Shown: positions 17,408-53,756 of the stretch, one piece after another
Position numbering within the stretch: the stretch's first letter is position 1
How the letters are laid out: each line of letters opens with the position of its first letter
From: Apilactobacillus kunkeei DSM 12361 = ATCC 700308
Lineage (GTDB): Bacteria > Bacillota > Bacilli > Lactobacillales > Lactobacillaceae
Assembly: GCF_001281265.1 (NCBI RefSeq)
Contig: NZ_JXDB01000002.1
Location: 62,001-126,000, forward strand
DNA: 64,000 nt
Reading direction: 5' to 3'
The notes under the pieces: generated by a model
Seen by the model: the letters and a program-made list of their open reading frames with translations, nothing else
What the model was told of the DNA's origin: nothing
The model's database searches: none
Translations under genes and position numbers: made by a program

Positions 17408-18589
17408 ATGACTAAATTCAATAATACTAAGAAATGGGTATATGCCGCAGCCATGACTGGGGTATTATTTGCTGGAGCCCAATATGCTAATTCATCCAGT
17501 AATTATTTAGCTAAGGCGGATACCACCAACAATACGTCTCAACATCAATACAAATACAATTCAACAATTAACTTCCAAGATCAAAACAAGAACTCCCTTG
17601 GTGGTGTGACTGCTTCAAGTGATAGCAATAACTTCCAAAAGTCACGACTTTCATACACTTTGCATTATCATGACAAGACATATGACTTCACTGACCAAAT
17701 CAAGAACGACAAGGATATTCCTGACACCATTGATTTGAGCAAGCCAGAATACAATTACACCTTGAACCAACCAACTCACACTTTGACAGTTAACGTCATT
17801 GATAAGGATACTCATGCTGTTCTTGCTACTAAGGGCTACACTGTAACCGACTTTGGTACAACTGACATCAAGGACTTAGTTGCACCATTCTCAAATGACT
17901 ACAGCTACAGTTACTCAGATCCATTCAACTATGAAAATCAATACAACGTTGAAGTATCAAAGGCTAATGTATCAAGCGCTAGTGGCACTACTATTCATGG
18001 TCAAGCTTCAGCATCTTACGATAACGAAGGCAAACAAAGTGCTTCAACAACTACATCGTCAGCTGCTGCTTCAACTGGAACTAACACTAATGAAAGTTCT
18101 ACTTCAAGTGAAAGCTCATCAGCTGAAACATCAAGTGCAGCTAGTTCAAGTCAATCCAGTGAAGCTTCAAGCGCTGGAAGTTCAAATGCATCAAGCGCAG
18201 AAAGCTCAACACAAAACTCAGCTGAATCTTCAAAGGCTAGCCAAAGCAATGAAGCAACTAACTCATCACAAGCTGCAAACCAAAGCTCTGAATCAACAAA
18301 CACTTCATCAGCTGAATCATCAGTTGCTTCATCTGTAGCATCATCAATGGCTGAAAAGAAGTCAGAAGCTAACAAGGATAACGAAAAGACATCAGTTATT
18401 TATGATCCTGTAAACCCAGGTGAAGAAAAGGCTGGTAACAATGCTGGTAAACCTGCAAATGTTGAATCTAACAAGTTACCACAAACTGGTGACAAGACTA
18501 ATCAACAAGCAATTGTTGGTGTTGGTGTTATCGCTATGATTGTTGGTGCTGTTCTTGGATTCTTTGGATTAAGAAGAAAGAATAGATAA
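17408..18589 (+). CDS. LPXTG-anchored Ser-rich surface protein (tandem paralogue 1)
   Basis: 393 residues. An N-terminal signal with KKWVYAAAMTGVLFAGAQ, probably cleaved after AKA near residue 37, is followed by a folded domain (about 45-190) and a Ser/Ala/Thr/Glu-rich stalk (about 205-325). The sorting signal is LPQTG, a hydrophobic helix and the tail RRKNR. Sortase A should link it to peptidoglycan. It shares the pattern PDT(I/L)DLS and L-x-QPTHTLT(V/I)N with the next gene, so the two arose by duplication. Ligand unknown; an adhesin role is inferred. Confidence 0.9.
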   Translation: MTKFNNTKKWVYAAAMTGVLFAGAQYANSSSNYLAKADTTNNTSQHQYKYNSTINFQDQNKNSLGGVTASSDSNNFQKSRLSYTLHYHDKTYDFTDQIKNDKDIPDTIDLSKPEYNYTLNQPTHTLTVNVIDKDTHAVLATKGYTVTDFGTTDIKDLVAPFSNDYSYSYSDPFNYENQYNVEVSKANVSSASGTTIHGQASASYDNEGKQSASTTTSSAAASTGTNTNESSTSSESSSAETSSAASSSQSSEASSAGSSNASSAESSTQNSAESSKASQSNEATNSSQAANQSSESTNTSSAESSVASSVASSMAEKKSEANKDNEKTSVIYDPVNPGEEKAGNNAGKPANVESNKLPQTGDKTNQQAIVGVGVIAMIVGAVLGFFGLRRKNR

Positions 18590-18774: not shown

Positions 18775-19938
18775 ATGAAGTTTAATAAGAAGAATTCAAA
18801 ACTATTCAAGAACACTAAAAAGTTCGTTTACGTTTCAGCAATTACGGGGGTACTATTGACCGGAACACAAGCAGGACGATTCGCATTTACATACACAGCT
18901 CACGCGGATGAAACTGTACAAACATCATTAGTAACAATTACATTTACTGATCAATATGGAAATCAATTCCAAAAACCAGCTGGTGATAATCAATTTTACC
19001 CATCGGTAATTACCTATCCAGTTCAAAATGCACAAGTTAATAAGTCAGACTTACTAAACAGTTTAAGCGATTATCCTGGTGTTAGCACAAGTGATAACAA
19101 TGTTCCTGATACCTTGGATTTAAGCAGAGCTGGTAGCTACACTTATAAGCTAACTCAACCAACTCACACATTAACCATCAACCTAGTTGACCAAAACGGT
19201 CACACTGTTGAAACTAAAACAGTACCTGGTGTAACTAACTTTGGCCAAACTGATACTAATGATTTAATTGCTTGGGCTAAAGCTCACCAATATGGATACG
19301 ATTCATTCCCATCAGTTGTTGATAACAGTCAAACTACTGTAAACATTTCAGTAAAAGCACCTACCACCACAGTTGTTAACGAAAACACTCAACAAAACAA
19401 CACAACTACTGAAACTACTACTCAAAGTTCTGATACTACTACAGTTCAATCAAGTGCTTCTGACGCAACTGTAAAGAGTTCATCACAATCAAGCTCAGCA
19501 GAACAATCATCTGCATCAAACGATGACAAGAAGGAAAGTACTTCATCAGCTTCAACTAGTGAAGCAACTAAGCCAGTATCACAATCAAGCGAAACTACTA
19601 AACAATCAAGTTCAGCAACTGAAACTGTAAAATCAGAAAGTGCTTCATCAGCCGTTGCCTCATCAGCTGCTACTTCAACTGAAAGTTCAGCACAATCATC
19701 AGCTGCATCACAAGCTCCAAAGAATGATGAAAAGACAATGGTCATTGTTGATCCTGTCAACAAGGGTGAAAACAAGAAGGCTCAACAAACTCCAGCTGCA
19801 GATAAGAAAGACGTTCGTGCTAAATTACCACAAACTGGTGATAACACTAACCAAACTAGAGCAATCGCATTAGGTGTTGCTACCATTGCAGTTGGATTAG
19901 GCCTTGCTTACTTCGGCCTAAGAAGAAAAAATAAATAG
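18775..19938 (+). CDS. LPXTG-anchored Ser/Thr-rich surface protein (tandem paralogue 2)
   Basis: 387 residues with the same plan as its neighbour: signal peptide ending near AHA-DE (about residue 42), folded domain (about 45-200), low-complexity Thr/Ser/Gln stalk (about 205-320), then a conserved DPVN-x-GE linker, LPQTGDN, a hydrophobic helix and RRKNK. The ribosome site is GAAGAGAG. The folded domain is less acidic than in paralogue 1 but keeps the QPTHTLTIN core. Only a weak hairpin (ACAAAT/ATTTGT) follows the stop, so read-through into the next small gene is possible. Confidence 0.9.
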   Translation: MKFNKKNSKLFKNTKKFVYVSAITGVLLTGTQAGRFAFTYTAHADETVQTSLVTITFTDQYGNQFQKPAGDNQFYPSVITYPVQNAQVNKSDLLNSLSDYPGVSTSDNNVPDTLDLSRAGSYTYKLTQPTHTLTINLVDQNGHTVETKTVPGVTNFGQTDTNDLIAWAKAHQYGYDSFPSVVDNSQTTVNISVKAPTTTVVNENTQQNNTTTETTTQSSDTTTVQSSASDATVKSSSQSSSAEQSSASNDDKKESTSSASTSEATKPVSQSSETTKQSSSATETVKSESASSAVASSAATSTESSAQSSAASQAPKNDEKTMVIVDPVNKGENKKAQQTPAADKKDVRAKLPQTGDNTNQTRAIALGVATIAVGLGLAYFGLRRKNK

Positions 19939-21578: not shown

Positions 21579-21607
21579 AAAAGATCGACTAATGTCGGTC
21601 TTTTTTT
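21579..21607 (+). terminator. Terminator of the alcohol dehydrogenase gene
   Basis: AAGATCGAC TAAT GTCGGTCTT (one G-T pair) followed by T7. Confidence 0.85.
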
Positions 21608-21650: not shown

Positions 21651-21679
21651 TTGACTTATCATAATTAAAAGTTTAGTAT
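21651..21679 (+). promoter_or_regulatory. Likely promoter of the leader peptide/permease transcript
   Basis: TTGACT and TAGTAT are 17 nt apart and lie about 45 nt before the leader ORF. Confidence 0.5.
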
Positions 21680-21721
21680 ACGATACAATCGTTAGGAAAT
21701 ATATCGGAGGAGGAGACACAT

Positions 21722-21790
21722 ATGAATAATTTTATGAACATGTACATGTGCGATTGTTGTAAACCAGCGGCTTCTCCTCTGGTTATTTAA
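21722..21790 (+). CDS. Leader peptide rich in Met and Cys (candidate attenuator peptide)
   Basis: A 22-residue ORF, MNNFMNMYMCDCCKPAASPL followed by V and I. A very strong GGAGGAGG site lies about 8 nt upstream. Four of the first nine residues are Met and three of residues 10-13 are Cys. The peptide ends 34 nt before an intrinsic terminator that precedes the permease gene. The Pro-Ala-Ala-Ser-Pro codons form the 5' arm of an alternative hairpin that would disrupt the terminator. This is the layout of ribosome-mediated attenuation; sensing of Met or Cys supply is inferred from codon content. Confidence 0.72.
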   Translation: MNNFMNMYMCDCCKPAASPLVI

Positions 21791-21831
21791 TCGCGTCGTG
21801 ATACATACGATTAATCTGAGAAGAGCTGCTG
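21765..21831 (+). promoter_or_regulatory. Antiterminator arms of the permease leader
   Basis: CAGCGGCTTCTC (21765-21776) pairs with GAGAAG-AG-CTGCTG (21818-21831; AG bulged, one G-T pair). Between them TTAATCG (21787-21793) pairs with CGATTAA (21808-21814) and would bring the arms together. The 3' arm overlaps the 5' arm of the terminator, so the two structures exclude each other. Confidence 0.65.
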
Positions 21832-21861
21832 ACCTATAGTGATGGGATCAGCGGCTTTTTT
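21825..21861 (+). terminator. Attenuator terminator before the permease gene
   Basis: GCTGCTGA pairs with TCAGCGGC (one G-T pair), followed by T6, ending 55 nt upstream of the permease ATG. Confidence 0.8.
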
Positions 21862-21915
21862 GTTTGGAGGGGAATACATACATCACATCATAATACTTAG
21901 GAAGTGAAATAAATA

Positions 21916-23268
21916 ATGGATTTAGATGAGTCAAAAAAGATTACTAAATTTGAGACGTTTGCGTTAGCCGTTGCAGCTGTTGCTCCAACTGGTTCAATTG
22001 CCTTTAACGCCGTACCAGCAGTGCCGTTTGCTGGAATTAATGTACCATTAGCGTTTCTACTTGGTGCGATCGGATTACTTTTTGTAGGTATCTGTTTTGC
22101 GGAATTATCAAAACATATTTCAGACGTTGGTTCAGTATATGCTTATAACCAACAAGCTTTAGGAGAAAGATTAGGTTTAGTTAGTGGTTGGACGCTAACA
22201 TTTGCCTATGTGAATTTAGCGGTTTCATGTATGGGGGCGAATACTAACTTTGCACATGTATTCTTTGCTCAGTTAGGTTTTAATTTCAACAATACAATTA
22301 TTGCGTTTGTAATTTTATTAGGAGCTGCACTAGTTCTTACATTTGGTCTAAAGCTTACCAGTAAATCAGCCATTGCAATTGAATTTTTGGCGATTGCTAT
22401 TTTGGTTGTACTAACCGTTATTATTTTTGCCAAAGGTGGACGTGATGGCATTAGTGCCCAACCATTTGTTCCAACTCACAGTAGTGTATCTGGAATTGGA
22501 CAAGGAATGGTATTTGCCATCCTTTCTTTCTGTGGTTTTGAAGGTGTTACAACTGTAGCTGTTAGAACAAAGAATCCAAAACGTTCAGTGCCATTATCTA
22601 TTATTGTTACAATTATTTTTGCCGGAATTTTCTTTGTTATTGCTAGTTATATGCAAGTAATCGGATTTGGTATCCACCATGTCTCAGATTTCGCTCATTC
22701 TTCATCGCCATTAAACGATCTTTCATTAATGTATATGGGTCGACCAATGGCTTTGATTATGGACTTTGCCATTCTAATTAGTAGTTTTGGCTCCGTACTT
22801 GGTATCATGAACGCTGGTGCATACATGATTTACGCAATGGGTGTAAAAAAATATCTACCAAAATACTTTGGCAAATTTAATGAAAAACTAAATAGTCCCA
22901 CTCGTTCAATTTGGTTGTTAACGGCTATTATGGCAGTGGCTTATCTTATTTTTGGTGTTCATTATGGACCTGAAGTAATTTATGCTAACTCCTCAACACT
23001 TGGAGTTTTAAGTATGTTGACAGTTTATGGTCTAGCTTGTCTTGGAACGATTCTATATTTCCATAAGCATAGAGATACTATTAAGCGTTCATTTATTAAA
23101 CATATTTTGATTCCAGTTCTAGGAATTTTAGTGTTAGTTTACCCAATGTGGACTAACCTATATCCAATCCCAGACTTCCCTGGCAACTTATATCCATACG
23201 CAGTAATTTTATGGATTATTATTGGATTGGTAGTATACGTAATTAAAAAGAGAAGAAAAGAAGATTAA
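21916..23268 (+). CDS. APC-family amino acid permease
   Basis: A 450-residue polytopic protein with about 12 hydrophobic helices. The first helix has APTGSIAFNAVPAVPFAG, the usual unwound substrate-site helix of the amino acid-polyamine-organocation family. FAILSFCGFEGVTTVAVRTKNPKRSVP is the helix-6 region with the typical E-x-V-x-x-x-x-NP signature (in one stretch). It ends in a basic tail (KKRRKED). Substrate cannot be read directly; the upstream Met/Cys leader peptide suggests a sulfur amino acid. GGAAGTG lies about 10 nt before the ATG. Confidence 0.88.
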   Translation: MDLDESKKITKFETFALAVAAVAPTGSIAFNAVPAVPFAGINVPLAFLLGAIGLLFVGICFAELSKHISDVGSVYAYNQQALGERLGLVSGWTLTFAYVNLAVSCMGANTNFAHVFFAQLGFNFNNTIIAFVILLGAALVLTFGLKLTSKSAIAIEFLAIAILVVLTVIIFAKGGRDGISAQPFVPTHSSVSGIGQGMVFAILSFCGFEGVTTVAVRTKNPKRSVPLSIIVTIIFAGIFFVIASYMQVIGFGIHHVSDFAHSSSPLNDLSLMYMGRPMALIMDFAILISSFGSVLGIMNAGAYMIYAMGVKKYLPKYFGKFNEKLNSPTRSIWLLTAIMAVAYLIFGVHYGPEVIYANSSTLGVLSMLTVYGLACLGTILYFHKHRDTIKRSFIKHILIPVLGILVLVYPMWTNLYPIPDFPGNLYPYAVILWIIIGLVVYVIKKRRKED

Positions 23269-53564: not shown

Positions 53565-53756
53565 TGCGATGAGTCGAGGAGATTGCGCAACTACGGTTGT
53601 ATTCACAAGACGTGATTAAGCAATATTTTCGAAGGGGACACATTATGCGGACGTAATTCGCGTGTCTGATATGTTGGTGATGTGAACACCACTTATCCGT
53701 CTACTTAGTAGATGCCAAAAAGAGCGTAACTTCATTTGAAGTTACGCTCTTTTTTA
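53565..53756 (+). ncRNA. Structured non-coding RNA candidate (about 190 nt)
   Basis: An extended -10, TGTTATACT (53550-53558), precedes a gene-free 190-nt stretch that ends in a strong terminator. Several compatible helices are visible: GTTGCG/CGCAAC (53563-53591), GGTTGTATTCACA with TGTGAACACC (53595-53607 and 53681-53690, two bulges), and inside it GACAC/GTGTC (53637-53666) extended by ATTATG/CGTAAT. The length and long-range irregular stem recall 6S RNA, but I could not match conserved 6S positions. Only a very short ORF (MRT) has a ribosome site. Confidence 0.5.
53717..53756. terminator. Terminator of the ncRNA candidate / methyltransferase gene
   Basis: A 16-bp perfect stem (GAGCGTAACTTCA with TGAAGTTACGCTC at its core) flanked by A5 and T6. 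Confidence 0.92.

Follow-up and report, generated by a model that had tools for sequence, protein, structure and literature searches.

The window analysed here (64,000 nucleotides of the Apilactobacillus kunkeei DSM 12361 genome) harbors a gene for an amino-acid permease preceded by a leader region, whose features are collected in Table 1. Upstream of the leader lies the terminator (21579-21604) of an alcohol-dehydrogenase-like gene. The transcript is expected to start near 21687; promoter-like sites across the region are not above chance (14 found versus 12.0 expected from shuffles), and a TTGAC...TAGTAT/TAGCAT pair was read by eye at the matching place upstream in all the eight leaders of this kind described below. 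The open reading frame (ORF), its peptide, the strong Shine-Dalgarno (SD) sequence, the terminator and the antiterminator were found, on the basis of sequence and folding, where a preliminary description of this locus had placed them.

Table 1. Features of the permease leader region (coordinates of the window).
Feature	Position	Strand	Basis or remark
Sigma-70-like promoter, TTGACT-17-TAGTAT	21651..21679	+	9/12 consensus matches
Segment 1, leader SD region	21703-21715	+	Pairs with 21771-21783; minimum-energy fold, RNAalifold consensus, pair count, shuffles
Leader ORF, MNNFMNMYMCDCCKPAASPLVI-stop, 22 codons	21722-21790 (including TAA)	+	SD-led short ORF in 8/8 permease carriers
Cys10 codon	21749-21751	+	Sequence
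Tandem Cys codons 12-13 (TGT TGT), putative control codons	21755-21760	+	Invariant, with the start Met, in 8/8 leaders
Segment 2	21765-21783	+	Antiterminator 5' arm (21765-21776) and partner of segment 1 (21771-21783)
Segment 3	21818..21837	+	Antiterminator 3' arm (21818-21831) and terminator 5' arm
Segment 4	21842..21861	+	3' arm of the intrinsic terminator, six-T run; dG about -24 kcal/mol
Intrinsic terminator	21819-21861	+	Segments 3:4
Antiterminator	21765-21776 with 21818-21831	+	2-nt bulge
Permease SD site, AGGAAG	21899..21904	+	Sequence
APC-superfamily amino-acid permease, 450 aa, putative regulated gene	21916-23268	+	Pfam/NCBIfam matches

The permease (E up to 1e-60) was retrieved from 25 of the 397 genomes of the family, including eight of the 16 genomes of the genus; the named relatives belong to A. 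kunkeei, A. nanyangensis, A. waqarii and A. apinorum, and were accompanied by a metagenome bin and one distant non-relative. In all the eight carriers of the genus, the gene is preceded by an SD-led short ORF containing Cys-Cys and then by a terminator, and the leader still accompanies the permease in the genome G003, where the upstream genes differ. The search of the genus with the DNA sequence gave eight matches, one of which (G010) is a short chance match, and missed A. apinorum G001, which was detected when searching with the protein and with the RNA model. With a covariance model of the leader, strong matches (E 5e-21 or better) were obtained only in the eight carriers among the 397 family genomes, on the basis of which the idea of a leader older than the genus was rejected. 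Weak matches (E up to 0.1) occur in 39 further family genomes; the 12 of these loci that were inspected (L109-L120) are mostly bare terminators, and the short ORF with Cys-Cys is present in none of them. The preliminary description had proposed to search for the same leader upstream of homologous permeases: it is kept in 8/8 carriers within the genus, but a plausible one was found at none of the 21 readable loci of other genera (of 22, L017-L038; L018 is too short to read, and some matches begin inside the gene). At one of these loci (L033), a TTG-started frame with CCC lies within the upstream coding sequence and was taken as chance. The evidence of conservation comes from only three independent lineages, all of them within one genus.

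These lineages are apparent from the leader peptides, which split into the kunkeei group, comprising six genomes whose peptides are 95-100% identical to that of the window (MNNFMNMYMCDCCKPAASPLVI), A. apinorum G001 (MRKLLTITHNHCCLDGGFFSELITSRLTY; 23% identity to the window peptide) and G003 (MKKLNLFFNNCCSDDGFLRG; 25%). The only residues invariant in all the eight leaders are Met1 and two tandem Cys, located at codons 12-13, with the exception of G003, where they occupy codons 11-12; the residues 3' of Cys13 vary, and the Cys10 codon of G005 has undergone the synonymous change TGC to TGT. In other words, the Cys codons have been kept in the three lineages while the sequence of the leader RNA diverged. 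Cysteine accounts for 0.39% of the 17,005 residues encoded by the window ORFs of at least 150 amino acids (six frames), among which no Cys-Cys pair was found, and the chance of three Cys in 21 residues is p about 8e-5. The comparison of the sequences, which reveals the parts of the leader, shows that they are conserved and locates the Cys codons, offers good support to leader-peptide attenuation as such, that is, the kind of control already proposed for this locus.

The 185-nt leader folds 4.17 standard deviations below its dinucleotide shuffles (z -4.17), none of 200 being as low. In the minimum-energy fold, the 3' half of the ORF is taken up by the SD region, and the terminator is formed as well (21819-21861; a simple terminator scan did not list it); a T-run and a terminator stem, the latter with an energy of about -23 to -24 kcal/mol, are present in 8/8 leaders, and in G001 the leader stop is located 4 nt 5' of the terminator. 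The pairing of the SD region (helix 1:2, 21703-21715 with 21771-21783), which had gone unnoticed in the preliminary description, is embedded both in the minimum-energy fold and in the RNAalifold consensus of the eight leaders. Since segment 1 pairs with 21771-21783, it is a second rival for the antiterminator's 5' arm, and with this predicted helix the leader would possess all three pairings, 1:2 / 2:3 / 3:4, that make up a trp-type attenuator.

The significance of these helices was assessed with 1000 shuffles of the ORF's 3' part per leader, in five of the eight leaders representing all three lineages. Pairing 2:3 equal to or above the observed one was obtained in 2 (G000), 8 (G004), 5 (G013), 7 (G001) and 2 (G003) shuffles out of 1000; the corresponding values for pairing 1:2 were 4, 5, 4, 177 and 5, helix 1:2 of G001 being therefore no better than its shuffles. 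In the alignment of the eight leaders, 96.8% of the cells of helices 1:2 and 3:4 pair, a value reached by 1/500 shuffles, and four pairs have changed on both sides (2/500 shuffles), the number of further pair types being not raised (399/500). Covariation, suggested beforehand as a check on the helices, is thus found for 1:2 and 3:4, for which it represents modest evidence given the few lineages involved, but not for 2:3, whose register shifts between lineages, so that it cannot be counted column by column. A further pairing was observed at the expected RNA 5' end: the sequence AATCGTT (21687-21693), kept in 8/8 leaders, can pair with ACGATT 3' of the ORF (21808-21814) in the kunkeei group and in G003, not in G001.

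In order to relate these structures to translation, the RNA 3' of the ribosome was folded for each codon, up to but excluding the 3' arm of the terminator (barrier model). With the first tandem Cys codon in the A site, the expected 2:3 pairs are 14.9 in G000, 17.1 in G001 and 14.6 in G003; they are lost a few codons past the tandem Cys and fall to 0 with the stop codon in the A site; in the five leaders examined in this way, the result is stable whichever footprint edge between P+11 and P+19 is chosen. According to these counts, a ribosome held any further along than the tandem Cys codons would no longer leave the antiterminator largely free. This model bears out the original proposal that a ribosome at the stop covers the antiterminator's 5' arm, which a stalled one would leave exposed, while a looser model, permitting base pairs between the RNA on either side of the stalled ribosome, agrees with it in only 2/8 leaders: with Cys12 in the A site, 2:3 forms only in G001 and G003, and 1:2 is formed instead in the six kunkeei-group leaders, to which this model would assign the wrong outcome unless the SD is occupied. 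With no ribosome, 1:2 outweighs 2:3 in 7/8 leaders; in G001 it is 2:3 that wins, and the untranslated state would therefore be ON there.

On the whole, the data argue for a cysteine-responsive, ribosome-mediated transcription attenuator controlling the permease, which we consider probable on sequence grounds; we infer stalling, termination, read-through and the role of Cys-tRNA as the signal. RNA polymerase would start near 21687, and a ribosome would load on the leader SD. When Cys-tRNA is ample, the ribosome would pass codons 12-13, reach the stop and cover segment 2 (21765-21783), allowing segments 3:4 to pair, and transcription would end at 21861. When Cys-tRNA is scarce, the ribosome would pause once a Cys codon has entered its A site, leaving segment 2 free to pair with segment 3 (21818-21831); the terminator would be blocked and the permease transcribed. 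In the absence of translation, segment 1, i.e., the SD itself, would take segment 2, and the terminator would form. Such a system would be compact, the leader's own SD being an arm of the switch, so that ribosome loading and stalling might be tested jointly.

A variant of this scheme, which we regard as rather unlikely, is that the antiterminator requires a second ribosome to have loaded on the SD while the first is stalled. In all three lineages a distance of 30-33 nt, about one ribosome footprint, separates the AUG from the start of the Cys pair; in the kunkeei group, where the unoccupied SD can retake segment 2, one stalled ribosome may not suffice. If this were true, the leader would work as an AND gate of Cys-tRNA starvation and translational capacity (ribosome loading).

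According to the preliminary description, the signal would be methionine as well as cysteine, and an attenuator responding to Met, alone or jointly with Cys, is the next reading to be weighed, since a stall at Met5, 7 or 9 would also free the antiterminator. Three internal Met codons are indeed present in 5/8 leaders (p about 0.012 for three in the peptide) and two in G005, and in the barrier model 18-20 of the 2:3 pairs are still expected in G000 while the ribosome occupies codons 5-9. However, there are no internal Met codons in the leaders of G001 and G003, and G005 has lost Met9; because these codons are missing in two of the three lineages, Met was rejected as the main signal, the Cys part of the proposal being retained on account of the Cys-Cys found in 8/8 leaders. 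Moreover, three T-boxes of the same genome, whose specifiers were read by eye, were assigned to Met and precede genes (named by eye) for an APC permease, a MetQ-like lipoprotein and a MetN-like ATPase, indicating that Met has its own sensor. On these grounds, a contribution of Met to the signal appears unlikely.

T-boxes are present in 16/16 genomes of the genus, with more than 20 matches each. Among the 27 matches in the window's genome (11 above the cut-off), none was read as Cys, L095 being uncertain; the five possible Cys specifiers proposed by a crude script (L083, L087, L091, L092 and L095) were rejected by position, the specifiers of the first four being read as Ile, Tyr, Tyr and Trp, respectively, and that of L095 not certain. 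No Rfam-recognised leader was found for cysS, nor was a leader ORF seen in its upstream region. As for the supply of cysteine, cysK/cysM-type genes (E up to 1e-20) were found in 0/16 genomes of the genus, the same search being positive in 13/14 control genomes, and genes for Cys_Met_Meta_PP enzymes were retrieved from only 4/16, the window's genome being without. The loci of the latter (G005, contig C37, about 113258-116468; G004, C30; G007, C18; G011, C21) look like a variable sulfur amino-acid island, and some of these Cys/Met-type PLP enzyme genes have T-boxes nearby. The genome paper of L. kunkeei MP2 reports a Met or Cys auxotrophy (PMC4841242). Taken together, the absence of cysK/cysM-type genes, the few Cys_Met_Meta_PP genes and the auxotrophy of MP2 suggest that the import of cysteine, or of a precursor, is probably vital to these bacteria.

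It might also be supposed that the leader senses a general slow-down of translation or a ribosome-targeting drug (as in ermC or ABC-F type systems), or encodes a nascent-chain arrest peptide, given that segment 2 would be freed by a ribosome held up anywhere before codon 14; nevertheless, the residues beyond Cys13 show no conservation, and the gene concerned encodes an amino-acid permease and not a resistance determinant, which makes this reading very unlikely. Least plausible of all, and highly improbable, is a ligand-binding riboswitch or a degenerate T-box with an incidental ORF, which would be in agreement with the strong folding of the leader, with the presence of T-boxes throughout the genus and with the T-box preceding a 40%-identical permease (L035, see below), but not with the conservation of the Cys codons despite the divergence of the RNA, nor with the leader itself, in which there is no Rfam match at the gathering threshold and no T-box sequence was seen.

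The cysteine-responsive attenuator proposed here can be compared with several known systems. In the trp/his-type attenuators of E. coli, the position of the ribosome on segments 1-4 sets the outcome; the leaders described here share the four segments and an untranslated state predicted to be off (7/8 leaders), but their segment 1 lies in the SD region and not in the leader codons. Canestrari 2020 reportedly deals with poly-Cys leader ORFs of mycobacterial cys operons. These poly-Cys leaders are, as regards the signal, among the closest systems, together with the uORFC-8-2 motif, described in PMC8632094 as a uORF with tandem Cys codons and a terminator upstream of cysS in Rhodobacterales; Rfam 15, in which no family matched our leader at the gathering threshold, may not include it. 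In both systems, predicted only, tandem Cys codons (usually 14-15 there; 12-13, or 11-12 in G003, here) are followed by an intrinsic terminator, and sensing of Cys-tRNA through ribosome stalling has been proposed; however, that motif belongs to Alphaproteobacteria and controls a cysteinyl-tRNA synthetase gene rather than a permease, and its first stem holds the Cys codons, whereas segment 1 here is the leader's SD. Candidate Cys leaders of mycobacteria and other Actinobacteria (PMC1262725) and the mycobacterial poly-Cys leaders for which a 2026 paper describes translation attenuation (PMC13236596) resemble ours in being short ORFs containing a run of Cys codons, Cys-responsive there and putatively so here. 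They differ in that the ORFs are leaderless, with Cys codons near the stop, and control cys operons instead of a permease; conserved terminator hairpins are lacking in mycobacteria (PMC1262725). Within the Firmicutes, the ilv-leu attenuator Rli60 of Listeria (PMC5864092) and the predicted His leaders of bacilli (PMC2965389) likewise represent leader-peptide transcription attenuation with a terminator and an antiterminator, but contain BCAA or His codons and precede biosynthetic or aminoacyl-tRNA synthetase genes instead of a permease.

The suggestion that a sulfur-amino-acid leader of this kind had not been described therefore holds for Cys leaders in lactobacilli, among the papers listed by a literature search covering few subscription journals, but not elsewhere, in view of the Rhodobacterales, the mycobacteria and other Actinobacteria. 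The cysteine version of leader-peptide attenuation in honeybee-associated lactobacilli is thus apparently new, and would extend the short list of leader-peptide attenuators known from Firmicutes to cysteine and to an importer, in a genus that is rich in T-boxes.

The permease matches Pfam AA_permease (121 bits) and NCBIfam TIGR00909 (121 bits, far below the cut-off), and scores 115.5 bits against BcaP, whose equivalog cut-off is 690. BcaP-type permeases are reported to transport branched-chain amino acids, together with some Met in Lactococcus (PMC7375092) and also with Ser, Thr and Asn in Bacillus (PMC11005379). No sulfur gene was identified beside the permease. From the leader we infer that it may import cysteine, cystine or a related compound; the attenuator would point to a cysteine-linked substrate in bee-associated bacteria seemingly unable to make cysteine. 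The 40%-identical permease of another genus mentioned above is preceded by a T-box (L035 1118-1410; 67.4 bits, below the gathering score), whose specifier, read as UGG or AUG, is of no help with the substrate. Related permeases can thus be found under different kinds of leader.

Two other features of the window were observed. The Ref68 / Lacto-3 RNA has an Rfam match at 53565-53689 (+ strand, 60.8 bits). Two adjacent, similar-looking Ser-rich surface proteins are encoded at 17408-18589 and 18775-19938, with an LPXTG anchor recognised by Pfam and NCBIfam in the first and by eye in the second.
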